DNA of 35,902 nucleotides, taken from a virus. Positions 15,864 to 35,554 of this stretch are shown here, in pieces (the stretch's first letter is position 1; each line of letters starts with the position of its first letter). Location: positions 1 to 35,902 of IMG/VR virus record IMGVR_UViG_3300022752_000198. One strand, 5' to 3'. The notes under the pieces were generated by a model. It saw only the letters and a list, made by a program, of their open reading frames with translations. It did not search any database and was not told the origin of the DNA. The position numbers were made by a program, and so were the translations under genes.

Positions 15864-16952
15864 TTAAGGGGTAACAGTTGTAGAATTTTCGGTTTCGGGT
15901 TGAGCATCAACAGATGCATCAATCTTAGTGTAGAGTTCCATGAAAGATTGCTTAGTTTCATCATCGAAACGAGCAATACACACTTCGATTGCTTTCTTGC
16001 GCTTGCCGAAGATGCTGAAGGCACGAATAACATGCACCAGACGACGAGTGGAAATGATTTCATCAACCCCACCATCGTAGAAAGTCTTACGAATGATTTC
16101 CGCCCAAGCAACCAAACGGTCAACGAATTCGGAATCGTAAGCATTCAGAGACTCAGCAGCTTTCTTAAGAATAGCAGTCTCAACCTTAGGAGAAGGATAT
16201 GCCTGCTCTAAAGTTACAGGGAAACGCTCAAGGAATGCTTCATTAAGCACATTGGTGCCGATGAAGCGACCGTCATCGCTACCCTTGCCTTTGGTGTTAG
16301 CGGTAGCAACAACGTTGAAACCAGCAGCAGGTTTGACATACTTGCCAATCTTCTTGAGGAAGACACCTTTGCCTTCAAGCACAGACTGAAGACACAGAAT
16401 CTTGTTGGAAGCAAGGTCAATCTCATCCAGCAGCAGAATAGCACCGCGATTCAATGCTTGAACGACAGGACCATCATGCCACACAGTCTCACCGTTGACG
16501 AGACGGAAACCACCAATCAGGTCATCCTCGTCAGTTTCGATGGTAATGTTAACGCGAATCATCTCACGTTTCAGCTGAGCACAAGCTTGCTCCACACCGA
16601 AAGTTTTTCCGTTACCAGAAAGACCAGTGATGAAGATAGGGTAATACTGGCGAGAAGAAAGAATCTTCTTAATATCACTAAAGTTACCAAAGCTGACGAA
16701 GGTAGCATCTTTCTCGGGAATAAAGTTTTCGGGATTTTCGACCACAGATTCTACAGCAGGTTGACTATAAGTTTGCTCTAGTTGCTCAATAGCAGTCAGA
16801 TGCCACATGCCGCGATGCACCTTAAACTGCTCCAGTTTCTTAGTGAGAGTCTGGTAAGACATACCGATCTCATCAGCATAAGCACGAACATCGGCGGCAG
16901 TCACTACCGAACCGAAGCGGTCAATCATAGGTGCGACTTCAAAGTTTTTCAT
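15864..16952 (-). CDS. cobS: CobS-like AAA+ ATPase (MoxR type)
   Basis: AAA+ ATPase homologous to the CobS subunit of aerobic cobaltochelatase, a frequent cyanophage gene. Walker A GLSGNGKT is at residues 110-117 and Walker B ILLLDEID at about 172-179; a sensor-1-like NVVATANT and an arginine-rich RFP region follow. The N-terminal part (MIDRFGSVVTAADVRAYADEIG) is the usual CobS-type DNA/protein-binding start. The start is ATG 16952: the earlier TTG at 17006 lies within the -35 box. It is paired with a vWA partner upstream, the standard MoxR-vWA layout. Whether it inserts cobalt into cobalamin precursors in the host or remodels another complex is unknown. Confidence 0.93.
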   Translation of the reverse strand: MKNFEVAPMIDRFGSVVTAADVRAYADEIGMSYQTLTKKLEQFKVHRGMWHLTAIEQLEQTYSQPAVESVVENPENFIPEKDATFVSFGNFSDIKKILSSRQYYPIFITGLSGNGKTFGVEQACAQLKREMIRVNITIETDEDDLIGGFRLVNGETVWHDGPVVQALNRGAILLLDEIDLASNKILCLQSVLEGKGVFLKKIGKYVKPAAGFNVVATANTKGKGSDDGRFIGTNVLNEAFLERFPVTLEQAYPSPKVETAILKKAAESLNAYDSEFVDRLVAWAEIIRKTFYDGGVDEIISTRRLVHVIRAFSIFGKRKKAIEVCIARFDDETKQSFMELYTKIDASVDAQPETENSTTVTP

Positions 16953-16977
16953 GGTGTGGGTTGTTTCGTATGTAAGT

Positions 16978-17006
16978 ATTATAGGGGAAAAGAGGTGAGG
17001 GCGCAA
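16978..17006 (-). promoter_or_regulatory. Sigma70-type promoter TTGCGC-17-TATAAT for cobS
   Basis: Minus strand -35 TTGCGC (17006-17001), 17-bp spacer, perfect -10 TATAAT (16983-16978). The start near 16971 gives an 18-base leader before the ATG at 16952. The -35 lies in the loop and 3' arm of the hairpin at 16997-17012. Confidence 0.7.
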
Positions 17007-17012
17007 GCCCCC
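16997..17012 (-). terminator. Hairpin after cobT-like gene, weak terminator
   Basis: Minus strand GGGGGC / GCCCTC (one G-T pair) with loop TTGC, starting 11 bases after the cobT-like stop. It is followed by a pyrimidine-rich but not pure T tract (ACCTCTTTTCCCC), so termination may be partial. Confidence 0.4.
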
Positions 17013-17023
17013 AAGTGATTAGG

Positions 17024-19165
17024 TTAACTAATGAGTGTGGCGAAGGAGGTCAGCATCTTCTTATTGACGCCTTTCTTAGAAAGTGCCTTAGTAAATGCGG
17101 TGCCGATTTCTTTCTCGGAAGCATCCTCGGCAACATCAAATTCGCTATTCGCAGATAGCGAATCGGTGCCCATCAGATAGAGTGCCTGATAACCAAGATG
17201 CTCAACCAGCTCAGCAGACTTAGATTTCCTCCATTGCTTCTGAACTTCATTCCAATCGGTTTTACAATCTTCAGCATTGTAGGTGGTGTTAAGACCACGA
17301 CCATTCACCAGACGAATACCAATCAGGTTTACATCCGAGAAACGATCACGCACATTTTGAAGAAATACTTTGGTGATAAGATCCGAGTTACCATAGTAAC
17401 CTCCACCATCAAAGCGAGGATATACACGACCAGTCTTGCGGTCACGCAGAACACAATCACTGCTTACATAAGAAGTGCCCATACGGCTACCGTAAGTCTG
17501 ATCGGTATAGTAATTGATATTAGAAGATTCACCGTCAGTCAAAATAATAACGTTAGTTTTTTGAACCTTGTTACGCTTCTGAAAGTTGGGGATAAGTGCG
17601 GTCAGAGAGATTGCTGCTTCATGAAGAGGAGTGCCAGAAAGACCATACCCCGCAGGAAGATAATATCCAGAATAGGATGCTTCACCAACCACAAGGCGCC
17701 AAAAGTTTTTCAGTTGTGCTTCAAGATCTTTACCATTTCGCCCATTGCTGCTGACAAGATTCAACATATTGAAGTTGTCACACAGTTTCACCTGACCCGC
17801 TTTAGGAGTCTGAAGACGAGAAGATTTGGTGCGAGTTTGAGTCTCATAATCGTAGGATTTGTGATACCAATAATCATTGGTAAAAGCATAGATGTCAAAA
17901 GGAATCTGCACTTTCTTACAAAACCAAGCAAGATTGAGCAGTTGCTTAGCAGTATCCTGAAGAATATTGCCCATCGAACCAGACCAATCAAGGATAAAAA
18001 TCAAACCGTGATTCTTACCATCGGGCACAACGTTAACTTTTTTAAATACATCTTCATTCCACTTGTAGGTATGAAGCAGTGCCGTATCGAGAATACCAGT
18101 CTTGGCAGTAGATGAACGGGCATACTGATCTGCAGACTTACGCATTTCAAACTCTTTCACAAGGTAGTTAACCTCACGTTGAGCTTCACTACGAAAAGTA
18201 AGATACTGTTTGTCAACTTCCCTAAAGAGAGATTGCGATTGCTCACCAAAAGTTTGATTACAATCTTCTTGAACTTCTTTATTGGTAATAACAAATTTTT
18301 CTACTTTCAAGTCAGGCAACTCAATATAGTTGAGATGATGAGAACGAGGGTGGTCACTAATCAGTTGTTTCTGATTCTCAGTGAATGCCTTGTCAGTTTC
18401 AGACTCAAGTGTATTGTGTTGACCACCAGAAGTAGCTCCTTCGCCCGCACCTTGAGGTTGATTAGCATCAGCACCATCACCTTGAGTTTGATTACCATTC
18501 CCAGACATTTCTTGCGATTGCTCGTCTTCGCCTTGATCACCCTTACCTTGAGTAGAATCACCCCCATTTTGAGTAGATTGCTGAAGGTCGCCTTGCGCCT
18601 CAACAACCCGCTGTTGCTCCTGTTCTTCAGTGTATTGAAGAATCTTACGAGCAACTTCTACAACTTGCTCAAAAGTTTCAGCATTGGCGAGCTCATCTAC
18701 CAACAGCTTCTCTTCATCACTCCAAGAAAATACCTCACCAGCATGAATACCAATCTTAAAATAAAGATTCACACGGTCAATCAGAGCATAAGAATCTAAC
18801 TCACGCTCACCAATACAGAAGAAGTCTTCATCTTGTAGCTCTTTGTAACCAGCATAGAAGTTACGAGCAAGGCCAGGAAACTTACGCTTCATCAGTTTTT
18901 CGATGCGAGCATCTTCGCACACATTCAGATAGGATTGAGGAATGCCATAATCATTACCCCACTTGTCAGGAGTATACAGAGCGTGACCGACTTCATGCCC
19001 CACCAGCATATCGTATACATTGGCAGATGCTTTTTCCCACATAGGCAGGATCAGCACACGATCCTTCACGTTAAACATCGCCGTCTCAACAGGGCGGTGC
19101 TCTACGATCAGGTTTTCGGTAGCGAGAAGGCGAGCGAGATTGCCCTTGACTTCGGCGTTAAACAT
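17024..19165 (-). CDS. cobT: CobT-like vWA protein with metallopeptidase-type N-terminus
   Basis: A 713-aa partner of the MoxR-type CobS. N-terminal HEVGH (residues 57-61) with a downstream NVCEDARIE (about 81-89) is a zinc HExxH...E arrangement. A Q/G/S-rich linker spans about 182-255. A C-terminal von Willebrand A domain has the MIDAS motif DWSGS at 393-397 and TDGES at 543-547. CobT supplies the vWA partner of CobS in cobaltochelatase, but the intact HEVGH also allows a peptidase role. Start is ATG 19165: the promoter -10 overlaps the TTG at 19189. It has its own promoter and lies between gp46 and cobS. Confidence 0.88.
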   Translation of the reverse strand: MFNAEVKGNLARLLATENLIVEHRPVETAMFNVKDRVLILPMWEKASANVYDMLVGHEVGHALYTPDKWGNDYGIPQSYLNVCEDARIEKLMKRKFPGLARNFYAGYKELQDEDFFCIGERELDSYALIDRVNLYFKIGIHAGEVFSWSDEEKLLVDELANAETFEQVVEVARKILQYTEEQEQQRVVEAQGDLQQSTQNGGDSTQGKGDQGEDEQSQEMSGNGNQTQGDGADANQPQGAGEGATSGGQHNTLESETDKAFTENQKQLISDHPRSHHLNYIELPDLKVEKFVITNKEVQEDCNQTFGEQSQSLFREVDKQYLTFRSEAQREVNYLVKEFEMRKSADQYARSSTAKTGILDTALLHTYKWNEDVFKKVNVVPDGKNHGLIFILDWSGSMGNILQDTAKQLLNLAWFCKKVQIPFDIYAFTNDYWYHKSYDYETQTRTKSSRLQTPKAGQVKLCDNFNMLNLVSSNGRNGKDLEAQLKNFWRLVVGEASYSGYYLPAGYGLSGTPLHEAAISLTALIPNFQKRNKVQKTNVIILTDGESSNINYYTDQTYGSRMGTSYVSSDCVLRDRKTGRVYPRFDGGGYYGNSDLITKVFLQNVRDRFSDVNLIGIRLVNGRGLNTTYNAEDCKTDWNEVQKQWRKSKSAELVEHLGYQALYLMGTDSLSANSEFDVAEDASEKEIGTAFTKALSKKGVNKKMLTSFATLIS

Positions 19166-19188
19166 CGGTCTCTTTCGTTGATGAATCA

Positions 19189-19217
19189 ACTATACAGCAA
19201 AGGGGATGCCAAAGCAA
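19189..19217 (-). promoter_or_regulatory. Promoter TTGCTT-17-TATAGT for the cobT-like gene
   Basis: Minus strand -35 TTGCTT (19217-19212), 17-bp spacer, -10 TATAGT (19194-19189). The start near 19182 leaves a 17-base leader to ATG 19165. The -35 is inside the hairpin at 19202-19221. Confidence 0.6.
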
Positions 19218-19221
19218 CCCC
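19202..19221 (-). terminator. Hairpin after gp46, weak terminator
   Basis: Minus strand GGGGTTGC / GCATCCCC with loop TTTG and one T-T mismatch, seven bases after the gp46 stop; only a short T-run (TTTGCTG) follows. Partial terminator that also holds the next -35 box. Confidence 0.45.
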
Positions 19222-19228
19222 TCTTAAA

Positions 19229-20953
19229 TTATTCTAATGTCTCTTCTGTGACGTATGAGAAATTCTTATGCTTCTCAAATCGTAAGCAACGATCAAATTT
19301 ATCTGCCATATTATCACGATGAGAAATAACAAAAACATTTGTCTTCTCATCAAATGTTTGGAGTATCCACCCTAAGTCACTATTACCAGATTGGTCTAAC
19401 GATCCATCAAAGATTTCATCTAAAATAAGGAGGTTAGTGTCAACACTATTTTTAAGTTTAGCAACAGAGCGCCAAGTAAGCAACAAAGCAATATCAATAC
19501 GAGCTTTCTCTCCTTCGCTGAAAGATTCATAACTAAATTCATCTCTGTAACGTGATTTGATTACTTCTTCAAAACTTTCGTTGAGCATAAACGATGCTGG
19601 AAATTCCATCTTATCAAGATAATCGTTGATAAGTTTATTCATCGTCGGGAGGTATTTTTTGATGATCCTCGTTTTGATGCCCGAGTCTTTGAGAAGCTGC
19701 GCTGCTGTGAGTAAGCAATCTTTTTCTTCTTTTGTTTCTGAAATCGTTTCTTGGATTTGCTTCCCATCTTCGCTGAGGGATTTAAGTATTGAAAACTGCT
19801 CCCGTTGATTGACATCTGAATCCCGCAGTTTTCTGATGTCGTCGTCCAGTTCTTCAATTCGTCTATGAAGTGACTTAATTTCATTATTGAGTTGTCTGTT
19901 CTTTAGATTGAGTTCGTTTATTTCATCAATCAGAAGAATAAAGGTATTCTCTTTACTTTGGAGATCGGAAAGTTGTTGTCCCAAATCAGACACGCCTTTC
20001 TCCACCTCAGCAAGTTTATCCGAGAGAAGCGAGATCTTTTGTTGTTTGAAATGCTCCTCAATACTCTGACCGCATGTTGGGCAAGTATCATTTTCCTCAA
20101 AGAATTTCTTCTCTTTTGTGTGAGACTTTTGTTTGGTTGAAAGTTTCTCTTTGATTGTAGTGATTTTAGATATCGTTGTTTTAAGTGTCTGCGTGTCTGA
20201 AACGGCAGCGGTCTTAACGTTGATTTCCTTGTCGTTATTGAGGATTTCTGTCTCATGATGTAGAGCTTCCGTTAATAGAGATTCTTTTCTATTCTCTTTT
20301 TCTTGAATATCTTCTTTATTCTTTTTATCAATTTCAAGCATAAACTGTTTCTGCATATCAATCTTTTCTTTGACAAGAGATAGCTTATACTCGTGATCTT
20401 TTAATTCGTCGTTAATTACTTTAATCTTTTCTTTGAGATTGACATTCATTGTCGAGAAGATTTGAATGTCAAGAATGTCTTCAATGATTTCTCTACGAGC
20501 TGCCAATGAAAGACGCATAAATGGCACAAAGGTAGATGACCCGAGCACCACAATCTGAGTAAATGATTTGTAATTCATTTTCAGAATGGTTTGCTCAAAA
20601 TGTTTCTGTTGATCTACAGAAGAAGAATCTTGATTGAGTAGCGCACCATTTTGATAGATTTCAAACTTATTAGGTTTGATACCACGAATCACTGTGTATT
20701 TATTCTTACCAATATCAAAATTAACTTCTACAACACAATCACTTTGATTAATGGAGTTGAGAAGTTGTGGTTTATTAATTTTTCTAAATGGTTTACCAAA
20801 CAAAGAAAAAGTGAGAGCATCAAGAATGGTGGATTTACCAGCACCATTGCTGCCCACAATCAAACTACTTTTAGTGTCAGTAAGAGATACTTCAGTAAAC
20901 TGAGCACCAGTAGAAAGAAAATTTTTCCATTTAATCGTCTTGAAGATTATCAT
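19229..20953 (-). CDS. 46: Recombination endonuclease subunit gp46 (Rad50-like)
   Basis: SMC/Rad50-type ATPase that with gp47 resects DNA ends for recombination-dependent replication. Walker A GSNGAGKS at residues 34-41, a coiled-coil region, a zinc-hook CPTCGQ near the middle, a second coiled coil, the ABC signature FSEGEKARIDIAL and Walker B LLILDEIFDGSLD. Length 574 aa matches T4 gp46 (560). I use ATG 20953 (MIIFKTIKWKNF, AGAG site upstream), not the TTG at 20989. The start overlaps the end of the DUF3110 gene by 23 bp. Confidence 0.95.
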   Translation of the reverse strand: MIIFKTIKWKNFLSTGAQFTEVSLTDTKSSLIVGSNGAGKSTILDALTFSLFGKPFRKINKPQLLNSINQSDCVVEVNFDIGKNKYTVIRGIKPNKFEIYQNGALLNQDSSSVDQQKHFEQTILKMNYKSFTQIVVLGSSTFVPFMRLSLAARREIIEDILDIQIFSTMNVNLKEKIKVINDELKDHEYKLSLVKEKIDMQKQFMLEIDKKNKEDIQEKENRKESLLTEALHHETEILNNDKEINVKTAAVSDTQTLKTTISKITTIKEKLSTKQKSHTKEKKFFEENDTCPTCGQSIEEHFKQQKISLLSDKLAEVEKGVSDLGQQLSDLQSKENTFILLIDEINELNLKNRQLNNEIKSLHRRIEELDDDIRKLRDSDVNQREQFSILKSLSEDGKQIQETISETKEEKDCLLTAAQLLKDSGIKTRIIKKYLPTMNKLINDYLDKMEFPASFMLNESFEEVIKSRYRDEFSYESFSEGEKARIDIALLLTWRSVAKLKNSVDTNLLILDEIFDGSLDQSGNSDLGWILQTFDEKTNVFVISHRDNMADKFDRCLRFEKHKNFSYVTEETLE

Positions 20954-21218
20954 AATCTCTGGGGGGAACAATAATGTCGTCGGGTTCAATAATAGTGTAC
21001 TTCATCCCTTTCATTTCACACACTTGTATGCCAGTTTTTGGATCTACTTCATGAGTTGTAAGAGGGGGTAGAGTTTCTTTGTAGTCGTTTGCCTCAAGCA
21101 AACCAAGATACCTCTCAGCATCTTCTTCTTCTTTGAAGAAGTATACCACATGATCACCCTCGTTGTCAACAACCGAATAAACTCCATCTGAATGTTCGGC
21201 AAGGGTGATGAGGAACAT
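20931..21218 (-). CDS. DUF3110-like protein between gp46 and gp47, 95 aa
   Basis: The start MFLITLAEHSDGVYSVVDNEG, then VVYFFKEEEDAERYLGLLEANDY, fits the DUF3110 family known from cyanobacteria, plant plastids and cyanophages: a small alpha/beta fold with a conserved 'DAxRYAxLLEAxDF' helix. Function is unknown. It is coupled to both neighbours (one-base overlap with the gp47 stop, 23 bp with the gp46 start), suggesting cotranslation with the Mre11/Rad50-type nuclease. The family is one reason to favour a cyanobacterial host. Confidence 0.85.
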   Translation of the reverse strand: MFLITLAEHSDGVYSVVDNEGDHVVYFFKEEEDAERYLGLLEANDYKETLPPLTTHEVDPKTGIQVCEMKGMKYTIIEPDDIIVPPRDYDNLQDD

Positions 21219-22267
21219 TATACTACCTCACAACTTTCAATATATAGGGACTTCATAACGCTTTTTAATTTATTTTTGTCTACGGTTAACTCTACTTCGT
21301 CAATATATTCATTAAGAAGAGTAAGAGTATCTTTGATTTCTACATTCTCATCATCTTCAACAAACAGATCGTTGACAAGAGTTTCAATAATCTTCACATC
21401 ATGTGGTTGAGTTGCAAACACAGAATCTACAAATTTTTCAAACTCAGTATAGTCTTTCTTATCTTCTACGATAATCTTGACAAAAGAATTTGAACACTGA
21501 CTGGTATCGAAGCTGAGATGAGAACCAGTAGAATCATTGTAATAGATTTTCTGGAAAATCTCATAAGGGTTCTTGACCCGCTTGAGTTTATTTGTCTTTG
21601 GTTCATAGAGATGAAATCCTCGCTCGTCTTTGTAATCATTCCAAAACATCTGGTAAGGATTGCCCAGATAAGTGATGTTACCTCTAGTTGATTTGTGATG
21701 ATAGTGACCAGAGAATACTTGTTTGAACTTTTTGAAGATGGAAGGATCCATACCATGTTCTTGGGTATTGCCAGGCGTCACTTCAAAACCAGATAGTTCA
21801 AGATGCCCCATAGCAATCTCGGCACTGGTGTCATTAAGATGCTTCAAGGTATCATCATAGTTGCTGGAGTTAATCCAAGGCAACATTAGAATCTTAGCAC
21901 CATCAATCATCACTACCTCTGGATGAGCATAGATTTCAATGTTTCTGAAGTCTTTTAGCAGAAGTTCAGGTGAGTTAATCTCATTTGTATTCTTATAATA
22001 GACACAATGATTACCAAGAATCATGTGAACGAAGATACCCATGTCTTCAAGGCGTTGAAAATAATGTTGGCGAACCCTATTCCAAACACTAAAGTCAATT
22101 CCTTTGCGATTATCAAACGTGTCACCTAGATCAATAACAGTTTTGATTCCGTGTTTCTCTAGTGTTGGAAAGAAGATATCGTCGTAAAACTTTTTAAAAT
22201 ATTCCCAAAAAGCGACACTACCTTTTCTTCCGTCAAGGTGTTGATCAGTAATAAGTGCTATGGTCAT
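21218..22267 (-). CDS. 47: Recombination endonuclease subunit gp47 (Mre11-like)
   Basis: Metallophosphoesterase nuclease partner of gp46. The five metal-binding blocks are visible: TDQHLDG (residues 7-13), VIDLGDTFDNR, HMILGNHCVYY, MGHLEL and SGHYHHKS. Length 349 aa agrees with T4 gp47 (339). Its ATG overlaps the gp55 stop by 4 bp; the order gp55-gp47-DUF3110-gp46 is a compact coupled unit driven by the promoter before gp55. Confidence 0.95.
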   Translation of the reverse strand: MTIALITDQHLDGRKGSVAFWEYFKKFYDDIFFPTLEKHGIKTVIDLGDTFDNRKGIDFSVWNRVRQHYFQRLEDMGIFVHMILGNHCVYYKNTNEINSPELLLKDFRNIEIYAHPEVVMIDGAKILMLPWINSSNYDDTLKHLNDTSAEIAMGHLELSGFEVTPGNTQEHGMDPSIFKKFKQVFSGHYHHKSTRGNITYLGNPYQMFWNDYKDERGFHLYEPKTNKLKRVKNPYEIFQKIYYNDSTGSHLSFDTSQCSNSFVKIIVEDKKDYTEFEKFVDSVFATQPHDVKIIETLVNDLFVEDDENVEIKDTLTLLNEYIDEVELTVDKNKLKSVMKSLYIESCEVV

Positions 22268-22782
22268 CGTTTGGATCGAATCTCAAGGTTTTCTTTGATG
22301 CTGTTCATATCAGCACTGCTGCTATTATATCCCATCATATCACCACTGTAACTGTCTGTATGCAAAACTTCATCAAATCCAGAACGCTCAAGCAATTTAT
22401 TTTTTGTTTCTAATTGCTTTTTCTCTTTAGCAATTCTACGAAGAAACGCAAAATATATCATTTGTGTAAAATAAGCAAAAGGATTAGTAGATTTTGCTGG
22501 ATCAAATCTATCAATATACTGTACACAATTTTCTACCGCATCACCTATCATATCATCCCTAAACATGTAATTTACAAAGTTAGGTTTGTAGGATAAATGC
22601 GTAGCAATTTTATGAAAACACTCCCCAATATAATTTGGAATACGTGGGCGCTGTATTCCTTGTCTTGTTGCTTCGCCACACTGAAGTTTATAGACAACCA
22701 AAGCGTCCAAAAATTCTCTGTTGTTGACGTAGTTTTCTGTTTTCTTTTTGGTCATTTTTGACGCTATGGTACTGGTACTCAT
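22264..22782 (-). CDS. 55: Late transcription sigma factor gp55
   Basis: Sigma-like protein that directs host RNA polymerase to NATAAATA late promoters, many of which occur in this window. The region DMIGDAVENCVQYIDRFDPAKSTNPFAYFTQMIYFAFLRRIAKEKKQ is a sigma region 2-like helix pair. The frame is open to ATG 22815, but a promoter -10 box lies at 22811-22806, so that ATG would not be transcribed. Candidates are ATG 22782 (used here, 172 aa) and ATG 22755 (MTKKKTENYVNN, close to the start I recall for cyanophage gp55); none has a clear ribosome-binding site. No gp33 co-activator gene is seen. Confidence 0.93.
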   Translation of the reverse strand: MSTSTIASKMTKKKTENYVNNREFLDALVVYKLQCGEATRQGIQRPRIPNYIGECFHKIATHLSYKPNFVNYMFRDDMIGDAVENCVQYIDRFDPAKSTNPFAYFTQMIYFAFLRRIAKEKKQLETKNKLLERSGFDEVLHTDSYSGDMMGYNSSSADMNSIKENLEIRSKR

Positions 22783-22805
22783 GAACTTAATCAATTTACA
22801 ATACA

Positions 22806-22834
22806 ATTGTAGCATACGCTAACAAAATTGTAAA
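22806..22834 (-). promoter_or_regulatory. Sigma70-type promoter TTTACA-17-TACAAT for gp55
   Basis: Minus strand -35 TTTACA (22834-22829), 17-bp spacer, -10 TACAAT (22811-22806); start near 22799. It is back to back with a plus-strand promoter whose -35 begins five bases away, so polymerase binding to the two should be mutually exclusive. Confidence 0.65.
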
Positions 22835-22838
22835 GGGC

Positions 22839-22867
22839 TTGACAAGACCTTCAATTCTGTGTATAAT
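22839..22867 (+). promoter_or_regulatory. Perfect consensus sigma70 promoter on the plus strand
   Basis: Plus strand TTGACA (22839-22844), exactly 17 bp, TATAAT (22862-22867). It faces away from gp55 into the antisense strand of the LSm-like gene C. No plus-strand gene exists downstream. Confidence 0.75.
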
Positions 22868-22873
22868 AGCAAT

Positions 22874-22994
22874 GTTGCGCTTTCAAGATTTATTATAGAT
22901 CTGTTCTAAAATACTTCTAGCTTCTTTAGTTGAACTGATATATCCATCCATTATTCTTGTATCACGGCGGTGACCTGGAATGCCACCGTTTTTT
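22874..22994 (+). ncRNA. Candidate antisense RNA, about 120 nt
   Basis: The consensus plus-strand promoter predicts a start near 22874. A hairpin CGGTG / CACCG (22968-22988, extendable by G-U pairs) followed by six T residues (22989-22994) could end the transcript. The RNA would be antisense to the last 110 or so bases of LSm-like gene C. It has only a trivial reading frame. Antisense RNA is known in cyanophage S-PM2 (opposite psbA), so the idea has precedent. The hairpin lies in coding DNA and could be chance. Confidence 0.4.
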
Positions 22995-23299
22995 AACATG
23001 TAATCTTCTTGTTGTTTTCTTTGTAGATACTGTTCATAGAAGGAAACAATTCTACCGTCAGTCTCAACCATTGTAACAATTTGATTACGAGGAATAATAA
23101 ATATGTCTTCGTATGTTGCTCGTATCCAAGATTGGAATTCAAATCCTTCTATTTTTATTCCCCTTTTTTTCATTTCAGTTCTAATTACAATCCTTGGATT
23201 AAAAATAATAATAACATCATCATCAGGATCATAGGAAACTTTTCCAACTAATTCTTCACTAGAAGTTAATTTAATAGTGGCATAAAATTCTTCTTCCAT
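22883..23299 (-). CDS. LSm/SH3-like small protein C, 138 aa
   Basis: Third member of the family seen at 10.0-10.7 kb: the start FYATIKLTSSEELVGKVSY, then VIIIFNPRIVI, a central FQSWIRA and IIPRNQIVTMVETDGRIVSFYEQYLQ match the strand order and the NP, FxxW and terminal Y features of A and B. A basic C-terminal extension (residues 103-138, GGIPGHRRDTRIMDG) is unique to this copy. Function unknown; Sm-like RNA binding is a hypothesis. It starts one base after uvsW ends, so it is cotranscribed with uvsY-uvsW. An antisense promoter faces its 3' end. Confidence 0.78.
   Translation of the reverse strand: MEEEFYATIKLTSSEELVGKVSYDPDDDVIIIFNPRIVIRTEMKKRGIKIEGFEFQSWIRATYEDIFIIPRNQIVTMVETDGRIVSFYEQYLQRKQQEDYMLKNGGIPGHRRDTRIMDGYISSTKEARSILEQIYNKS
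22968..22994 (+). terminator. Terminator-like hairpin on the plus strand
   Basis: Plus strand stem CGGTG / CACCG with an 11-base loop and six T residues right after it. Modest stem, inside the coding region of LSm-like gene C on the other strand. Confidence 0.35.
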
Positions 23300-23300
23300 A

Positions 23301-24779
23301 TTATCTTAAATCTATTTTAATAATTTCTACATTAAAATTTTCTTCTTCATAAATTTTTAAACGCTCATCCAAATGTTTTAGCGTGTAATTTTTTTGTGGT
23401 GTTCTACAATACTCATCGGCAATGTCATAAAGAGTAGCATAAGTTTTATTATCACCCTTACGCAATACACGACCGATAGACTGTAAGTTTCTTACTCTTG
23501 ATTTTGAAGGTGAAGCAAATACAACATTGTGTAGATTACGAATGTTGATGCCAGTGCTGAATGTTCCGTATGAAGCAACAATCACTGCGTTGTTTTCAGT
23601 TTCAGTGATGCGTCTAATCTCTTCGCGTTCTTCAGTGTCTACACCACCATAGACCAGAAAAACTTTACGACCTTCTTCGACAATACTATTTATCGACTCA
23701 TAAAGTGGCACTCCATGACGTTCCACATAGTTAAATAAAACTAAAGAGTTTCCATCCAAGTCACGCACAAGATTTTTAATCAAACGATTGCGTTTTGGAT
23801 TATCAACAATCGCATCGATCTCCCCTTGATAATCAAAAAACTCTTGTTTTTCATGTTTGAGCAAAAGAACTTTGATTCTGAAATCAGACAAGTGACCTTC
23901 CTTAATAAGCTTCTCTGTCTTGGTAACATGTTTACACTCACCAAATAATCCTTCCAGCACCCACTTGTGAGTAGCAGAACCATCTAGTGTTCCAGTGAAA
24001 CCAAACCTATACTTAGCTTCATGAAGTTTAGTCATGATGCCAGTAAGTGATTTGGATTTGAATAGATGTGCTTCGTCACCGATGACACAAGAGAAATCAT
24101 CAAACCAACGTTTAGGAAACTTGTAGATAGATTGCCAAGTGGAAATGATAACTGCTTTCTCTGCGTTTTTATCTTTACCGCCGTAAATTTTGTGACAAGT
24201 TTCTTCTACATCCCAACCATAATCCTCAAAGTCTTTATACATTTGCTCCACTAATGAAGTGGTAGGAACAATAATAAGAGTTTTCTTTCCTGTTTTTTTA
24301 TATTCGGAAGCATAGTAATAACGCACTAGAGAATAAATCATTAGAGATTTACCAGAAGCAGTTGGTGATAGTAAAAGTCTACGATTGTTTAATAATGCTT
24401 CGTATACTGCCTGAACCTGATAATTGCGTGGTTCGTGGTTGGAGCATACAGCTGCCATGAAACCTTTTACACCTTCAAGCGTAATATGTTCATTCTTTTC
24501 TTCTACATCTCCATAGAACTTATTGCCTTGATATTCGATTGAATAACCTTTAACTCCACTCCACTCTTTGAGATGTGAGATAAGACCACAATAGAGCTCA
24601 CCTGTTCCTGGTGAATAGAGTCTAATTTTACCGTCCCAGACACCACTTTTATATTGTGGCATAAACTTGGCATTAGGGATATCGAATGTAAAATAGTCTG
24701 CGAGTTCATAGTGAACATGTGGTTCTGTTTTGATGGTCAGGAAAATGTTGTTCTTTTTTGCGACGACCAGATTTGTCAT
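23301..24779 (-). CDS. uvsW: DNA/RNA helicase UvsW
   Basis: SF2 helicase that unwinds R-loops and branched recombination intermediates; in T4 it ends origin-dependent replication. The N-terminal UvsW domain (residues 1-115) contains the FMPQYKSGVWDGKIRLY motif, then Walker A SPTASGKS at 138-145, DEAH at 234-237, motif III FGFTGTLDG, and the C-terminal SYGTFSTGINIRNLHNVVFASPSKSRVRNLQSIGRVLR carrying motifs V and VI. Length 492 aa is near T4 (503). The start shares one base with the uvsY stop. Confidence 0.95.
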   Translation of the reverse strand: MTNLVVAKKNNIFLTIKTEPHVHYELADYFTFDIPNAKFMPQYKSGVWDGKIRLYSPGTGELYCGLISHLKEWSGVKGYSIEYQGNKFYGDVEEKNEHITLEGVKGFMAAVCSNHEPRNYQVQAVYEALLNNRRLLLSPTASGKSLMIYSLVRYYYASEYKKTGKKTLIIVPTTSLVEQMYKDFEDYGWDVEETCHKIYGGKDKNAEKAVIISTWQSIYKFPKRWFDDFSCVIGDEAHLFKSKSLTGIMTKLHEAKYRFGFTGTLDGSATHKWVLEGLFGECKHVTKTEKLIKEGHLSDFRIKVLLLKHEKQEFFDYQGEIDAIVDNPKRNRLIKNLVRDLDGNSLVLFNYVERHGVPLYESINSIVEEGRKVFLVYGGVDTEEREEIRRITETENNAVIVASYGTFSTGINIRNLHNVVFASPSKSRVRNLQSIGRVLRKGDNKTYATLYDIADEYCRTPQKNYTLKHLDERLKIYEEENFNVEIIKIDLR

Positions 24780-25255
24780 TAGGTACTACCGTTAATAAAC
24801 TTCTCCCACTCGATAGCGTTTTTAATTTGGAAACTTCTATTGGAAATCATTTTAAGAACATTATCCAAAAAGAAAAGTGCCTTATTAATAAACTCTATTT
24901 TCATTTCAATGTTAATTAAATCTTCATCTGCTTCCAAATATACTTTCATCTTCTCGGATGTTTTAATGGATTGCCCAAAAGGTTTCTCTTTGTAAACTTC
25001 GGGGTCTGCTTCCCCTTGATAATATTCTCTTTTTTCTTTTAACTTCATACGATACTGAAATTCCAGTGCTGTCTTCTCTGTAGAGAAATCGTTATAGAAG
25101 TTTAAATATTTATTGTGCTGGTAAGGGATATCTAGTGAGATTTGTGCTAAATCTGCTGAGTATTGTTTGTTTTTAAACTGGAAGTCGATGTGTGAATCTT
25201 CTTGCCATTCTGATTTAACATGATTAAAAAGAGTTTTCAAATCATCAAATTTCAT
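24779..25255 (-). CDS. uvsY: Recombination mediator UvsY
   Basis: Loads UvsX on gp32-covered ssDNA. The protein is helical and charged with the family's pattern: N-terminal KFDDLKTLFNHVKSEWQEDSHID, a central LNFYNDFSTEKTALEFQYRMKLKEKREYYQG and a C-terminal helix MISNRSFQIKNAIEWEKFINGS, which corresponds to the hexamerisation end. Length 158 aa against 137 in T4. It lies between the tail-tube-like gene (three bases upstream) and uvsW, as in T4-like cyanophages. Confidence 0.88.
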   Translation of the reverse strand: MKFDDLKTLFNHVKSEWQEDSHIDFQFKNKQYSADLAQISLDIPYQHNKYLNFYNDFSTEKTALEFQYRMKLKEKREYYQGEADPEVYKEKPFGQSIKTSEKMKVYLEADEDLINIEMKIEFINKALFFLDNVLKMISNRSFQIKNAIEWEKFINGST

Positions 25256-25258
25256 AAA

Positions 25259-25774
25259 TTAAATTCTCCTGTTGTTTTTATTTGTAAAGTAATAAGTTGT
25301 AAATTTAAATACTACATCAGCAGTCAAATAATCTACATCTCTATCTTCTACATCAAACGATAGTTCCGTCAAAGACGTTGGAAAAATATCCTCAAATTCT
25401 ACAATAATATTTGGATTAAAATTACTATTTAAAATTTGTAATTGAGCATTAGAATACTCTGGAATTTCTTGATCGTCCATTTCTTCTGATAGATTGTTTT
25501 TTCTAATCCATTTCCAGATGGTCAAATAATTACTTAAATCTTCTTCAACAATAAATTTTAAATTTAAATCTCCGTATTGAACTCCACCAGATGATGGTAG
25601 AGCAATGCTTCTATATCTCGTTGGTGCCTCTACTGTTCCAACAGAAATGTCTGGGAGATTTGCCCGTTGGCAAAAAAAATCTACACCAGTAAAAATATCA
25701 AGATTCATCTTGAATCCTGCTGGGGCAAGAAAATTTCTATTTGTTGGTTGTTCTGTGTACCACTTAGCAGACAT
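25259..25774 (-). CDS. Tail-tube-fold protein between gp23 and uvsY, 171 aa
   Basis: The motifs FFCQRANLPDISVGTVEAPT, QYGDLNLKFIVEEDLSNYLTIWKWIRK and the final DYLTADVVFKFTTYYF are those of T4-like tail-tube family proteins (gp19, gp54 and related baseplate or tail-terminator proteins). Its length is close to T4 gp3 (176 aa), and I recall cyanophages carrying a gene annotated gp3 at this place, so a tail-completion role is possible; the sequence alone supports only the tube-like fold. An AATAAATA late motif and the gp23 terminator lie upstream. Its ATG at 25774 has a weak TAAAG ribosome-binding site. Confidence 0.8.
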   Translation of the reverse strand: MSAKWYTEQPTNRNFLAPAGFKMNLDIFTGVDFFCQRANLPDISVGTVEAPTRYRSIALPSSGGVQYGDLNLKFIVEEDLSNYLTIWKWIRKNNLSEEMDDQEIPEYSNAQLQILNSNFNPNIIVEFEDIFPTSLTELSFDVEDRDVDYLTADVVFKFTTYYFTNKNNRRI

Positions 25775-25792
25775 GACTTTATGTTTTTTTAT

Positions 25793-25800
25793 TATTTATT
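25793..25800 (-). promoter_or_regulatory. Late promoter AATAAATA for the tail-tube-like gene
   Basis: The minus strand motif lies just beyond the gp23 terminator, 19 bases upstream of the ATG. Start at about 25787 gives a short leader of some 13 bases. Confidence 0.6.
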
Positions 25801-25805
25801 TCCAT

Positions 25806-25830
25806 AAAAAAAGACCCCCTTTTGGGGGTC
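25806..25830 (-). terminator. Strong terminator after gp23
   Basis: Minus strand perfect stem GACCCCC / GGGGGTC with loop AAAA and seven T residues, 19 bases after the gp23 stop. The strongest terminator in the window, placed after the most highly expressed late gene. Confidence 0.93.
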
Positions 25831-25848
25831 AAAGTATTTACCTGTAAA

Positions 25849-27267
25849 TCAGGTGAGGTTGGTAACCTTAACTCTTCTGTAATACTGGTTGGTATTAGCA
25901 GTGAGAGTTGAACCATCAGGAGTAGCACCAGCGATACCGTTGCTATTTGTAGTTGAAACGAATGGGTTGCTGACCATGCCGTAACGAGTCTTGAAGCCAA
26001 TCTTAGGCTGGAAGGTGTCAGGATTGATCGAACGAACCATCTGGAGAGGAACGTATGGGCAATAGAAGAGACCAGCATCATAAGGTGAAGTTCCCTTGTA
26101 ACCCATTACATAGTAGTGCTTAGCAGATTGTGACTGACTATAGATAGGAGCACCGAATGGATCAATGTAAACACGAATACCACCCTGAAGAACACCAGCA
26201 AATACGTTACCAGTGTCATCAACGTTGAGTGAAGTGTTGAGAGCAGGAGCGTAATCAAGCATACCAGCCATTGACATAGCGGAAGCAACGTCTGCCGAGC
26301 AGATCATGAAGTTGCCCTTACCTCTACGGGTTAGTTGACCGATAGCGTTTGCGTCACGCTGAATTTGGAATAGGAGACCCTTGAACTTCTCTGCCATCCA
26401 ACGACCGTTTGAATCGATATCAAGGTCGAAAGTACCTTGAGTAGCAACGTCGTTCTGAGCACCAGGAAGGGCAACAGTGTAGACGGTACGGATGATTTCG
26501 CGGTTGATCTCAGCGAGGATTTCGCTTGAGAGGATGTTAGCAAGCTCTTGCTCAGCATCAAGACCATGGATTGCCTTGAGGTCTTGTGCTAGCTCTAGGG
26601 TGTACTCAGCCTTGAGAGCGCGTGTCTTAGCAGTCACCGAGGTCTTCTCGATGCTGAATGCCATCTCGCGGAAGAGAGTGCCAGCTTCGCCAAGAACTTC
26701 TGAATTTTCACGAGTTAGTGAAGTTGTTCCACGCTCGTAAGTGCCAGGTGCGCTATCGTTAAGAACAGCAGGGTTGTTGCCTTCAGCATCGCCACCTGAA
26801 CCAGCAGCGGAACGAACGTTGTAAGCACCAACAGAAGCATCTGAACCACCAGAGAAACCAGCATCTGGTTCGTAGTAGAGAGCTTCAGCACCACCTTGAT
26901 TCTCGTAACGAGCACGCATTGCGAAAATAAGACCAGTAGGACCGCTCATTGGTTGAACACCAGCGATGTCGTAAGCGACAAGGTTGGGCATTGAACGGCG
27001 GATTAGGCTGATTAAGATAGGATCAAAACCAGCAAGACCAGCGGTGTTGCTTGAGGATAGAGCTGAACCAGCAGGTGAAACAGTTCCAGCGCCGAGTGAG
27101 TTAACGGCAACCTCGTTGAGCATACCATGCTCTTCGCGGATTGCGCGTTCTTGGTTTTCTAGCAGGGTAGCAACAACCTGTCTGCGATATGCGTCCTTAA
27201 TTTCAGGAAGGTCTTTGTGACCGAGAACAGGTGCCCACTTTTCCTGCAAAATTCTAGTGTCAGACAT
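25849..27267 (-). CDS. 23: Major capsid protein gp23
   Basis: HK97-fold hexon protein of T4-like heads. Recognisable segments: the N-terminus LQEKWAPVLGHKDLPEIKDAYRR, the NLVAYDIAGVQPMSGPTGLIFAMRARY core, LAQDLKAIHGLDAEQELANILS and a C-terminal KHYYVMGYKGTSPYDAGLFYCPYVPLQ. Length 472 aa is usual for cyanophages. The N-terminal about 60 residues are expected to be cleaved by gp21 in the prohead; the exact site is not assigned here. Codon use is biased to C/G-ending codons relative to neighbours, as expected for high expression. Late motif and GGAG site precede it, and a strong terminator follows. Confidence 0.97.
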   Translation of the reverse strand: MSDTRILQEKWAPVLGHKDLPEIKDAYRRQVVATLLENQERAIREEHGMLNEVAVNSLGAGTVSPAGSALSSSNTAGLAGFDPILISLIRRSMPNLVAYDIAGVQPMSGPTGLIFAMRARYENQGGAEALYYEPDAGFSGGSDASVGAYNVRSAAGSGGDAEGNNPAVLNDSAPGTYERGTTSLTRENSEVLGEAGTLFREMAFSIEKTSVTAKTRALKAEYTLELAQDLKAIHGLDAEQELANILSSEILAEINREIIRTVYTVALPGAQNDVATQGTFDLDIDSNGRWMAEKFKGLLFQIQRDANAIGQLTRRGKGNFMICSADVASAMSMAGMLDYAPALNTSLNVDDTGNVFAGVLQGGIRVYIDPFGAPIYSQSQSAKHYYVMGYKGTSPYDAGLFYCPYVPLQMVRSINPDTFQPKIGFKTRYGMVSNPFVSTTNSNGIAGATPDGSTLTANTNQYYRRVKVTNLT

Positions 27268-27302
27268 TTTGCTTTTACTCCGTTGAGTGATTGGGTTAAA
27301 AT

Positions 27303-27310
27303 TATTTATT
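27303..27310 (-). promoter_or_regulatory. Late promoter AATAAATA for gp23
   Basis: Minus strand AATAAATA in the 47-bp gp22-gp23 gap, giving a leader of about 30 bases with a GGAG site before ATG 27267. Confidence 0.8.
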
Positions 27311-27314
27311 ATTA

Positions 27315-28442
27315 TCAGTTGCTCCAGCGTGAAATCGCCTGAAGATAAGCAGCCATTACTGGTGATACTTCTTCGGATGATTGTTCGCCTGAGACTTCAG
27401 AAATTGCTTGTTCAGTTACAACATGCTTAGGGAAGTAACTTGAAATGAGAGTGGAAACTTTATTGCGGAAGTCTTCTTCCGAAACAAATTCTACACCTTC
27501 AGCAAGAGAAACAAGCTTTTCTCTTTGGGTATCAACTAGTCCCTCGCTCATCTGATTGAGGATTACGGTTTTTTGATAACCAGCGAGTTTATTATTAAGA
27601 TCAATATTACGCTCAATCTGTTCGTTGAGACGACCTTCCATTTCACAAAGCTCCTCAGTCATTGTTTCTACAACATTGACTTTCTCCTCGGGGAGATTGA
27701 GGTAGTTATCTTCAAAAACTTTTTTGAGACCACCCATGAACTCTTCAGCGATCTCAAGCTTGAGACCAGCATCAAGAGCTACTTGGTTTTCTTCTACCCA
27801 AGTGGTGATTGCGTAGTTGAGTGTTTCGTCAACTTTCTCTGAGAGAGCAGCAATCTCTTCTTGGAGTTTTGCGGAGAATTGCTCTTCTAGAGTTGAAGCG
27901 ATAGCATTTATTTGCTCTTCGATGCGTGACTTAACAGCAGCTTCGAAAATTGTAGTTGCTTTTGCTTTGAACTCTTCAGAGAACTCTTCGCCTTCGGTAA
28001 GAGCAGCAACATCTTCCGCAGCGGAATAGTTGATTGCTTCCATACCAAATACTTTTACGTTATTTGGACCACCAGGAATCTGGTAACCAGATGACTTAAC
28101 CGATGGAGCTGGATCTTGATGCTTCCCACGGGTTTGCTGATCGCTAACCTTCGAATTGTGGTTAGATGACTTAGCACCAGGATTTGATTCACCCTGAGGC
28201 TTCTCAAAGGTTGAACCACCGTCATCCTCTTCTGATTGATCAGGAGCAACGGAGGTTGGGATTTCAAATCCTGAATCCTTATGACCACCGCGAGTTTGAG
28301 CATCGCTTACAGCAGCACCAACTGGTTGCATGTACTGAGTGCCTGAAGATTGACCAGGAACGATTGAAGGGGAGAGCGCACTAGTGCCAACTTCTGACTC
28401 AGTTACAAGCTCCTCAAACTTTTCGTTTAAGTTATCTGACAT
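27315..28442 (-). CDS. 22: Prohead core scaffold gp22
   Basis: Scaffold around which gp23 assembles, later degraded by gp21. The acidic, coiled-coil C-terminal two-thirds (from about residue 145: EDVAALTEGEEFSEEFKAKATTIFEAAVKSRIEEQI) match the gp22 family; the N-terminal 130 residues are low-complexity and polar. That N-terminal part holds an internal repeat: VSDAQTRGGHKD (45-56) and VSDQQTRGKHQD (99-110), each followed by G-(F/Y)-x-I-P. Length 375 aa exceeds T4 gp22 (269), mostly through this region. Late motif 46 bases upstream, with a GAGGAA site. Confidence 0.93.
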   Translation of the reverse strand: MSDNLNEKFEELVTESEVGTSALSPSIVPGQSSGTQYMQPVGAAVSDAQTRGGHKDSGFEIPTSVAPDQSEEDDGGSTFEKPQGESNPGAKSSNHNSKVSDQQTRGKHQDPAPSVKSSGYQIPGGPNNVKVFGMEAINYSAAEDVAALTEGEEFSEEFKAKATTIFEAAVKSRIEEQINAIASTLEEQFSAKLQEEIAALSEKVDETLNYAITTWVEENQVALDAGLKLEIAEEFMGGLKKVFEDNYLNLPEEKVNVVETMTEELCEMEGRLNEQIERNIDLNNKLAGYQKTVILNQMSEGLVDTQREKLVSLAEGVEFVSEEDFRNKVSTLISSYFPKHVVTEQAISEVSGEQSSEEVSPVMAAYLQAISRWSN

Positions 28443-28487
28443 TTGAGATTCCTCGTAATTCTAACTAATATGTGTTTATTCTACAAT

Positions 28488-28495
28488 TATTTATT
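28488..28495 (-). promoter_or_regulatory. Late promoter AATAAATA for gp22
   Basis: Minus strand AATAAATA in the gp21-gp22 gap just upstream of (and clear of) gp22's ATG at 28442, with a leader of about 40 bases. Confidence 0.75.
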
Positions 28496-28498
28496 AAA

Positions 28499-29143
28499 TT
28501 ATAAACTTTGTAAGAAGTGGTTGAATGCTTTCAACGACCTCTCTTCAATATTTTTTCTGGTAGATTCAGAAATATATTTATGATATTTAGCAGCATTAAC
28601 CTCTTTAATGATGCCATTTTCCCAAACCCACTCTTTTCCTTCCATAATTCCGTTCACAAATGCGTCGGGTGCGGAGGGATCTGCTACAATATCAGCAGCA
28701 GTTGCGAGCATAAAATCATCACGAACATAATTGGCACCGTTCTTCTCTTCGATAGAACCCATGCCTCTTGAAGAAACACCAAGTTTTACACCTGATTCGA
28801 GTAGAGACTTGGCAATGTTTCCCATTGGTGTATTTAGGATCTGTGCTTTACCGATAAAATTGGAACCCTCTGCTTTGAGAGAAACAATTTTATGCGACAC
28901 ACGATCTAAGTTAACAGTAGGACCATCAGGATGACCTAGTTCACCGAGAGCACGACCAACGTTTACATACTGTTCGTTGTATCTACCAACTTCGCGCTCT
29001 AAAACGCCAAAGGGATATACGCGACCATTACGATTTTTAATATCTCCCTGAAGGAATACACCTTCGATGTGGAGAATTTTTGTTCCGTTTGATTCTTCTT
29101 CAAGGATTCGAATATCCTCAATGCTTTCGGTGATTAGTTTCAT
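28499..29143 (-). CDS. 21: Prohead maturation protease gp21
   Basis: Serine protease of the herpesvirus-assemblin-like fold that cleaves gp22, gp23 and other head proteins. FLQGDIKNRNGRVYP is the family N-terminal motif; LGELGHPDGPTVNLDRVSH carries catalytic His (H71), and GVSSRGMGS (residues 122-130) the catalytic Ser. Length 214 aa is near T4 gp21 (212). It overlaps the preceding core-protein gene by 4 bp. Confidence 0.95.
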   Translation of the reverse strand: MKLITESIEDIRILEEESNGTKILHIEGVFLQGDIKNRNGRVYPFGVLEREVGRYNEQYVNVGRALGELGHPDGPTVNLDRVSHKIVSLKAEGSNFIGKAQILNTPMGNIAKSLLESGVKLGVSSRGMGSIEEKNGANYVRDDFMLATAADIVADPSAPDAFVNGIMEGKEWVWENGIIKEVNAAKYHKYISESTRKNIEERSLKAFNHFLQSL

Positions 29144-29340
29144 TGGTCTGTTTCCTCTACTGGTGTTTCTTCTACCTCCTCTTCAGGAGCTTCGGGTTCA
29201 TCAAAAAAAGATTGGGCAACAATTTGTTTGTAATCTTTCATCGCATCTGCTGCTTTCCCATAGAGGATATCAGCAATTTTATCAAGTGCTTGAACTCTGT
29301 CGCCGTTACGAACGGCATTTACAACTTCAATAGTGTCCAT
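29140..29340 (-). CDS. Small prohead core protein (gp67-like), 66 aa
   Basis: Sits between portal gp20 and protease gp21, the place of T4 genes 67 and 68. An N-terminal helical part (VVNAVRNGDRVQALDKIADILYGKAADAMKDYKQIVAQSFF) is followed by a Glu/Pro-rich acidic tail (EAPEEEVEETPVEE), like T4 gp67. It is probably a minor scaffold component degraded by gp21. A single gene seems to replace both T4 genes. A late motif overlaps the gp20 stop just upstream; start ATG 29340. Confidence 0.8.
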   Translation of the reverse strand: MDTIEVVNAVRNGDRVQALDKIADILYGKAADAMKDYKQIVAQSFFDEPEAPEEEVEETPVEETDQ

Positions 29341-29360
29341 TTAATTTACCTATAATAAAT

Positions 29361-29368
29361 TATTTATT
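29361..29368 (-). promoter_or_regulatory. Late promoter AATAAATA overlapping the gp20 stop
   Basis: Minus strand AATAAATA contains the TAA stop of gp20 and precedes the gp67-like ATG by 20 bases. Confidence 0.65.
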
Positions 29369-30989
29369 GTTCTGAGGTTTTGGGTTTTGGTGCTGCAACA
29401 GGTGCTGGTGGTGGTGGCGGTAAAGCACCAACCTCCAAAGATGCTGCATTCATCAAGTTTGTGTGAACTGGGTCTGGAATTTTTCCTTCGGAAATTTCAT
29501 TTTCCATTTGTTTGGAAATTTCTTCATACTCAGCATCAGATTGCATTAAAACTTGTTTTCTGACATATTCAATCGAATAGTATTTACCCAAAAATGGATC
29601 TAATGCGGTAGCAACTTGGAGACGATTATTCATCAACTCTGCTTGCTTAAGTTCTTCAAAGTGATTATCAAATTGATAATCATATTGAATATGTTCTTGC
29701 ATCTCTTCCCAATCTTCAGGAGCAATAATTCCCTTTAGAATCAGTTGAGTTTTTAACATATCGTGGAATAATCCACTAAATTTTTTACGAAGTCTCGCAA
29801 TCCACTTCGCAAATTTAAGCTCATCACGAAGAATTTCTGATGAACGACCTAGAGAAAATCCTTGGTTGGCGTCATCTAAACGTGATGGCGGAAGATTGAG
29901 AGAATTGTATAATTTCTTTTTGAAGTATTCAACATCTTTAAGTTCTCCAAGATTTTGACCACCAGGAAGAGTAGTGATTTCAGTTCCTCTACCACCTTCG
30001 CGGCGAGGTAACCAGAAATCTTCAAGCATACTCATATGTTTTTTGTCGTCGCGGATTTCTCCAGTAGCAGCATCATATACAAGTTTATTTCTGTAACGCG
30101 CCATGGTTTCACGAAGATATTGCTCTGCCTTTACCTTCGGAAGATTACCTACATCAATGTAAAAAATTCTACGTTCTGGTGCGCGTGATAAGCGATAGAT
30201 AACCAGCGCATCTTCAATCATGCGTAACTGGTTGAGTGCCTTGATAGATTTGTGTAAAAAACTCAAGGTCATTTTTTTGTTATAATCTTGAATACCAGAG
30301 GTAATAAAAGTTATAGCATCATTTGCGATTCTAACACCAGTACCCACATTGTTGGTATCAAAAGAAGAAGCAATAAAACCTCTAGGATTATACATGTAGA
30401 ATTCTACATAGTCTCCAAAATCATATCTTGCTGCTCCATCCATCACTGTAGCGTTAGCAGTGACAGTGCTTAATTTCAAATCTTTATTTTGAACTCGTAC
30501 CTTTTTAATTTTTAACGGATCTATGTATCTTAGTTCAGTAATACCAGCCTTAGGATTTGCTAAATCAATTACTTTGTGGTAAAACATTCTACCATCTACA
30601 TACCAAGTTCTAAAAATTTCATGTGCTCTAGTATCAAAAGCAAGAAGTCTTTTGATGTAATCAAATTCTTCACGAATTTTTTTCTTTATTGATTCGCTTA
30701 CTTCAAGATTAGAAAGTTCTATTTGAACTGGAGAATCATCTAAACTTGAATTAATTGCTTCATTCACAATTTCGTCAATCGCAGAGTCAACTTCTGGATG
30801 CATCGCCATATCACGATAGCGCCTAATGAGATCAAACTCATTACGCGCTATACCGTCTATATCTACATACGAACCAAAATAACCACCAGCTACGGTGGTT
30901 ACTGAATCATCTGCGTTAGGAGGAACTGGAGATTGACCTCTCAGCTCCTCCTGTTTAGATTTAATTGAGAATCCAAATAACTGACTCAT
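29364..30989 (-). CDS. 20: Portal protein gp20
   Basis: Dodecameric portal at the head vertex through which DNA is packaged. The sequence shows the gp20 family core: GGYFGSYVDIDGIARNEFDLIRRYRDMAMHPEVDSAIDEIVNEAI, the LRYIDPLKIKKVR strand region, RAPERRIFYIDVGNLPKVKAEQYLRE and the DFWLPRREGGRGTEITTLPGGQNLGE stretch commonly used as a cyanophage marker. Length 541 aa against 524 in T4. The C-terminus is proline-rich (LPPPPPAPVAAPKP). A GATAAATA motif overlapping the gp19 stop is upstream. Confidence 0.97.
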   Translation of the reverse strand: MSQLFGFSIKSKQEELRGQSPVPPNADDSVTTVAGGYFGSYVDIDGIARNEFDLIRRYRDMAMHPEVDSAIDEIVNEAINSSLDDSPVQIELSNLEVSESIKKKIREEFDYIKRLLAFDTRAHEIFRTWYVDGRMFYHKVIDLANPKAGITELRYIDPLKIKKVRVQNKDLKLSTVTANATVMDGAARYDFGDYVEFYMYNPRGFIASSFDTNNVGTGVRIANDAITFITSGIQDYNKKMTLSFLHKSIKALNQLRMIEDALVIYRLSRAPERRIFYIDVGNLPKVKAEQYLRETMARYRNKLVYDAATGEIRDDKKHMSMLEDFWLPRREGGRGTEITTLPGGQNLGELKDVEYFKKKLYNSLNLPPSRLDDANQGFSLGRSSEILRDELKFAKWIARLRKKFSGLFHDMLKTQLILKGIIAPEDWEEMQEHIQYDYQFDNHFEELKQAELMNNRLQVATALDPFLGKYYSIEYVRKQVLMQSDAEYEEISKQMENEISEGKIPDPVHTNLMNAASLEVGALPPPPPAPVAAPKPKTSEQ

Positions 30990-31016
30990 GTTTAAAGTTA
31001 TATCACTTACTCTAGT

Positions 31017-31024
31017 TATTTATC
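31017..31024 (-). promoter_or_regulatory. Late promoter GATAAATA overlapping the gp19 stop
   Basis: Minus strand GATAAATA includes part of the TGA stop of gp19 and lies 28 bases before the gp20 ATG. Confidence 0.65.
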
Positions 31025-31622: not shown

Positions 31623-31654
31623 TGTTTGTTTACCTCGTAATTAGTTTTTAAATA

Positions 31655-33274: not shown

Positions 33275-33314
33275 GTTTATCTCCTCGTGAAGTAGTTCAT
33301 TTTTTAACTACAAA

Positions 33315-33322
33315 TATTTATT
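33315..33322 (-). promoter_or_regulatory. Late promoter AATAAATA for gp18
   Basis: Minus strand AATAAATA, 41 bases upstream of the gp18 ATG in an 88-bp intergenic gap; start at about 33309. Confidence 0.75.
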
Positions 33323-33362
33323 AAAATGAGTATCTTCATTGGGGAAACAACGCATGAACAAA

Positions 33363-35477: not shown

Positions 35478-35503
35478 AAGTCTTACCTTAAGACGGTAAT
35501 GTT

Positions 35504-35531
35504 ATTATATAGGTAAATGATGTATCGTCAA
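35504..35531 (-). promoter_or_regulatory. Sigma70-type promoter TTGACG-16-TATAAT
   Basis: Minus strand -35 TTGACG (35531-35526), 16-bp spacer, -10 TATAAT (35509-35504). Start near 35497 gives a 20-base leader with AAGG before ATG 35477. Its leader also has competing short hairpins (TACC/GGTA and GTCTT/AAGAC). Confidence 0.75.
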
Positions 35532-35554
35532 GTTACAATTTACACATATTTGTG

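Follow-up and report, generated by a model that had tools for sequence, protein, structure and literature searches.

A conserved antisense promoter opposite gp55 in T4-like cyanophages and its tentative place in a divergent pair controlling the late sigma factor

Why would a phage keep a consensus promoter on a strand that carries no gene? The question is raised by IMGVR_UViG_3300022752_000198, from the cyanophage group of T4-like phages, of which we analyzed a window of 35.9 kb (the whole stretch of DNA studied here). A minus-strand block in this window is transcribed in the order uvsY, uvsW, gene C, gp55 and gp47, and a sigma-70 promoter points against it from between gene C and gp55. The original prediction placed all genes on the minus strand, which holds for every recognised gene near this antisense promoter. 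T4-like cyanophages time their early and late genes without the T4 proteins MotA, AsiA, Alt and ModA/B (PMC2984593), and a geneless promoter beside the late sigma factor gene points to a control step. The locus comprises:

22264..22782, minus strand: gp55, late sigma factor (phrog_234, E=3e-64)
22883..23299, minus strand: gene C, Sm-like protein (phrog_471 'methylamine utilization', E=8e-33; Pfam Sm_like, E=1.5e-6, 28.7 bits, cut-off 29.4)
22839..22867, plus strand: antisense sigma-70 promoter TTGACA-17-TATAAT (12/12; opposite-strand counterpart in 112/113 distinct relatives)

The gap between the gp55 start (22782) and the gene C stop (22883) is ~100 bp long and holds both the antisense promoter and a promoter for gp55. 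Gene C matches the Sm-like domain slightly below the Pfam cut-off, and its name in phage records, 'methylamine utilization', is probably misleading. A search for relatives of gene C in bacterial genomes confirmed none, and scanning the window for Rfam families and tRNAs gave no matches.

The perfect TTGACA-17 bp-TATAAT originally reported on the plus strand was confirmed at 22839-22867 (+), the sole 12/12 site within 16001-35902. Scored against the sigma-70 consensus (-35 TTGACA, -10 TATAAT, 17±1 bp), the promoter reaches 12/12 in the window and 10-12/12 in 114 relatives. The chance expectation first attached to it (0.004) was too low for an A+T-rich window; recomputed as expected exact matches at 17 bp spacing in the window, it rises to 0.020 from base composition and 0.010 under a first-order Markov model. 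Given this expectation of 0.01-0.02 and a second perfect TTGACA-17-TATAAT at 5248-5276 (-), within gp41 on the coding strand and just upstream of the next gene, a perfect match by itself is modest evidence. The gp41 site has near-identical counterparts in further cyanophages (S-PM2 102150, for one), probably through conserved coding sequence.

Whether the antisense promoter is genuine is decided by its conservation across sequences, not by match statistics. We collected 160 IMG/VR loci that encode a gp55 or gene C relative, representing 113 distinct gp55/gene C intergenic regions. TTGACA itself was present in 113/113, and TTGACA-17-TAnn[AC]T opposite the gp55 strand in 112/113, compared with none on the same strand of 581 kb of flanking sequence; as the loci share ancestry, the 112 are not independent events. 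The sole misfit, L064, has a 16 bp spacer. The -10 hexamer varies (TAGAAT 33, TACAAT 25, TATAAT 24, TAGACT 15, TAGGAT 11, few others), and the spacer changes in sequence while its length stays at 17. Loss of the -35 and -10 in relatives had been named as the observation that would speak against the promoter; instead, both hexamers and their 17-bp distance are retained where gene C has fallen to 25-45% identity and the spacer has diverged. The span of gene C identity among carriers, 25-96%, shows the promoter to be old. The second perfect match, falling as it does in gp41 coding sequence, could suggest that the antisense site also reflects chance or coding constraint and has no promoter function. 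However, the antisense site is intergenic, its spacer varies around fixed hexamers and spacing, and the contrast with the flanking background is nearly complete, which leaves this explanation a negligible probability. On this comparative evidence, it is close to certain that the antisense promoter is genuine and under selection.

The same-place promoter was also found in S-PM2, S-RSM4, Syn1, S-SSM7, S-RIM2, ACG-2014d, Syn9, P-SSM2, P-SSM4 and P-HM2, as well as in the pelagiphage HTVC008M (12/12). ME01 has only a weaker form nearby (TTAACA...TACACT), and T4 has no comparable site near gp55. Kept at one position in cyanobacterial and Pelagibacter phages alike while leading to no gene, the promoter hints at a concealed control of the early-to-late switch. 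In S-PM2, Syn1, S-SSM7, S-RIM2 and ACG-2014d, no second TTGACA-17-TAnAAT occurs on the genome strand of the antisense site, the gp55 strand carrying 2-8; loosening the -10 to TAnnnT brings up a few further sites. We found no description of an antisense promoter at gp55 in the open literature, where an earlier mention may nevertheless exist. Strand-specific RNA-seq of P-HM2-infected Prochlorococcus MED4 (PMC5082946) is suited to the question; in P-HM2 (NC_015284), the predicted antisense +1 lies at ~120,709 on the minus strand. The antisense promoter ends at 84,446 (-) in S-PM2 (NC_006820) and at 123,705 (-) in Syn9 (NC_008296), with starts predicted ~7 nt further downstream.

What the promoter might do is suggested by its immediate neighbor, which was absent from the original prediction:

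22806..22834, minus strand: gp55 promoter TTTACA-17-TACAAT with extended -10 (TGC), 10/12 with TG
22829..22844, no strand: core of the divergent pair, two -35 hexamers back-to-back, 4 bp apart

The gp55 start codon follows this promoter by ~25 nt, and a gp55-strand promoter of 9-12/12 occurs in 113/114 relatives. The arrangement is tight in 104/114 relatives (gap of 2-7 bp in 76, -35 boxes overlapping in the palindrome TTGTCAA in 28) and wider in ten (14-28 bp), a distribution that our method somewhat favours, since on the gp55 strand we took whichever promoter scored best close to the antisense -35. A near match to an NtcA box (GTA-N8-TAC) between the promoters, seen by eye in the window, is absent in L087 and was rejected. 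On the plus strand downstream of the antisense promoter, we saw no conserved ORF and no recognised gene for this arm to serve; a small ORF (ATG-TTG-CGC...) was rejected, as it ends after 8 codons in the window and its ATG is missing in L087 and L101.

The sequences establish two promoters, their back-to-back placement, their conservation and a geneless antisense arm. Given an antisense promoter that is strong, geneless and closely tied to the gp55 promoter, we consider competition with gp55, or interference there, its most probable use. We hypothesize, with confidence slightly short of even, that it is one arm of a conserved divergent sigma-70 pair that controls gp55 in Kyanoviridae and delays the late sigma factor by competition. 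During early infection, host RNA polymerase could occupy only one arm of the pair at a time, and the stronger antisense arm would hold down and delay the gp55 arm. The antisense transcript, predicted to start past the gene C stop codon at a distance of ~10 nt in the window clade and of up to some tens of nt elsewhere, would run against transcripts arriving from uvsW-gene C. Once the antisense arm weakened, through lost host sigma-70 activity or a factor binding an element at its start site, gp55 would be released and late transcription would begin; the antisense RNA may be no more than a by-product, or it may be a second effector on the gene C 3' end. An effect of the promoter on gp55 transcription, already offered in the original prediction, is possible.

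Bidirectional promoters of E. coli provide a close model. Their arms compete once one direction is strongly activated, and basal activity is too low for competition (PMC12825309), which is why promoter strength matters for the competition model. Like these sigma-70 promoters (PMC12825309, PMC10268837), the phage promoters are opposed, and from their spacing they may be close enough for mutual exclusion; in 28/114 relatives their -35 hexamers overlap in one palindrome. By contrast, published accounts of the E. coli pairs stress pseudo-symmetric shared elements, whereas most phage pairs stand back-to-back at the -35 (gap of 4 bp in the window), and the phage arrangement has one geneless arm and is kept across a phage family. 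Counting against competition are the ten relatives with -35 boxes 14-28 bp apart and the weak form in ME01. A transcriptional roadblock would act at the same place: antisense transcription would block readthrough from uvsW-gene C into gp55 and leave gp55 to its own promoter. In every relative examined, the predicted antisense start falls in the interval that separates the gene C stop codon from the gp55 promoter, and the gp55 arm is conserved, as would fit a roadblock, yet this explanation overlaps with promoter competition, and we consider it quite unlikely.

Promoter conservation could instead serve an antisense RNA, for which the relevant features are:

22874..22994, plus strand: predicted antisense RNA, inferred from the promoter and a hairpin/T6
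22964..22994, plus strand: weak terminator-like hairpin with T6, within gene C
22886..22930, minus strand: last 15 codons of gene C, with synonymous-site conservation

The original proposal of an RNA against the 3' end of gene C would make it a cis-antisense small RNA that base-pairs there with the gene C (or uvsW-C) mRNA, altering its stability or translation; we find this unlikely. The extra synonymous conservation at the end of gene C is consistent with such pairing: codon identity is 0.92 in the last 15 codons versus 0.67 in the rest of the gene (14 closest sequences, MWU p=2.9e-5), and 0.81 versus 0.57 in the last 6 codons of a second clade (63 further sequences, p=8e-4), with cut points chosen after viewing the profile. 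The end of the RNA is less consistent. The reported hairpin with six T residues is present at 22964-22994, but it is weak (-8.2 kcal/mol) and not listed by a stricter terminator scan. Its homologue in L083 is a perfect form (-16.5 kcal/mol, z -4.0), whereas it is lost in L087 and in more distant relatives, being confined to the window and its closest relatives. Terminator-like sites are enriched in the first 300 nt of the predicted transcript (12/117 relatives versus 6/327 control stretches, Fisher p=3e-4), an enrichment that counts related phages more than once; their positions differ, and ~90% of relatives are without a terminator by the criteria used. The predicted whole RNA of the window also has no unusual fold (z -0.46). 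Of the ~120-nt RNA first proposed, the promoter stands, but a fixed end set by the hairpin is not supported as a general feature.

Antisense RNAs do occur in phages. CfrI, the antisense RNA of psbA and a homing endonuclease gene in S-PM2 (PMC2984593), resembles the present case in that a cyanophage gene is transcribed antisense at its 3' end, here as a prediction. The locus differs (gp55/gene C, with no Rfam match in the window), the promoter here is read from sequence and the RNA is predicted, so that the relation is by analogy only. PAK_P4as15 and lambda OOP (PMC12197685) are likewise antisense RNAs from phage control regions; these were detected, whereas the gp55 antisense RNA is predicted and has no defined end in most relatives.

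Alternatively, the transcript could matter as a primer, forming an R-loop that primes DNA synthesis at a T4-type replication origin. In T4, oriF and oriG need a promoter and an A+T-rich downstream element, oriE appears to use an early promoter, and UvsW unwinds R-loops (PMC3016281). As at oriE-type and other R-loop origins, the gp55 site would be a promoter whose transcript may outweigh any product: it makes no protein and adjoins uvsW/uvsY. Unlike the T4 origins, however, it has no clear unwinding element, the A+T content after the promoter showing only a small rise (0.77 at 25-50 nt versus about 0.67). The sequence at its start site also precedes ordinary genes elsewhere, and we judge an origin very unlikely.

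This start-site sequence sets the antisense promoter apart from most others:

22868..22883, plus strand: start-site element AGCAATGTTGCGCTTT, directly after the antisense -10, with the predicted +1 G at ~22874

The element is conserved within clades, reading AGCAATGTTGCGCTTT in the window, AACTCTGTCAGGGTTCA and close forms in S-PM2-like phages, AACCATGT in S-RIM2, AACAATGT in ACG-2014d and AAGCTTGTC in contig G005; the evidence that it changes from genome to genome comes from a handful of variant types. TGT is fixed 6-8 nt past the -10 in 67/83 sequences, which puts G at the expected (predicted) +1. The same element follows one or two other TTGACA-17 promoters per genome, on the coding strand and before early-type genes, and its presence at both kinds of promoter is a firm observation. 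For instance, in G001, a relative from the window's clade, one sense promoter shares the complete element (16/16) with the gp55-antisense promoter. In six genomes, each of the 27 near-consensus sense promoters was scored against the gp55-site element of its own genome, with no picking by eye. In five of the six, one or two sense promoters matched at 8-10/10 (chance of an 8/10 match for a random stretch, 0.0003) and the remaining promoters at ≤5/10; S-SSM7 had no matching sense promoter, and in S-RSM4 the own-genome match was no better than the cross-genome match.

A dyad centred near +1/+2 had 5/5 pairs in 49/83 sequences versus 27 in shuffles, a test that relatedness inflates, and the window's own element pairs at 3/5 only. 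Dyad arms co-vary in several lineages, though not all (AACTC/GGGTT, AACCT/AGGTT, AACCG/CGGTT, AAACC/GGTTT; in HTVC008M AGGC/GCCT). A hairpin of the antisense RNA was rejected as the meaning of this dyad, the left arm preceding the predicted +1; a DNA dyad is likelier. As the element spans positions on both sides of the predicted +1, its sequence favours a role at the DNA rather than the RNA level.

The promoter-element module occurs in 64 stretches of the window's clade, and its copies away from gp55 precede the start codon (ATG) of a 62-aa protein by ~30 nt. Building on the divergent pair, the element might be a genome-specific start-site operator of an early-to-late timing switch, placed also on one or two early genes, where a phage-encoded regulator would couple early expression to gp55 release; we regard this extension as possible but doubtful. 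As part of the same proposal, the early gene under the operator in the window's clade would be the 62-aa protein, which belongs to no PHROG family and matches nothing in Pfam above cut-off. This protein (MNLQNPSE...) is conserved (L215 6678, L203, L209, L222 and others) and is a candidate early regulator or regulated gene. In L230, at about 1541-1854 (-), the module occurs twice, as identical copies 269 bp apart. A second divergent pair with the element was seen in the cyanophage contig L424 (1299-1361; G004 162098/162132), where the element-bearing arm drives an ordinary 193-aa gene.
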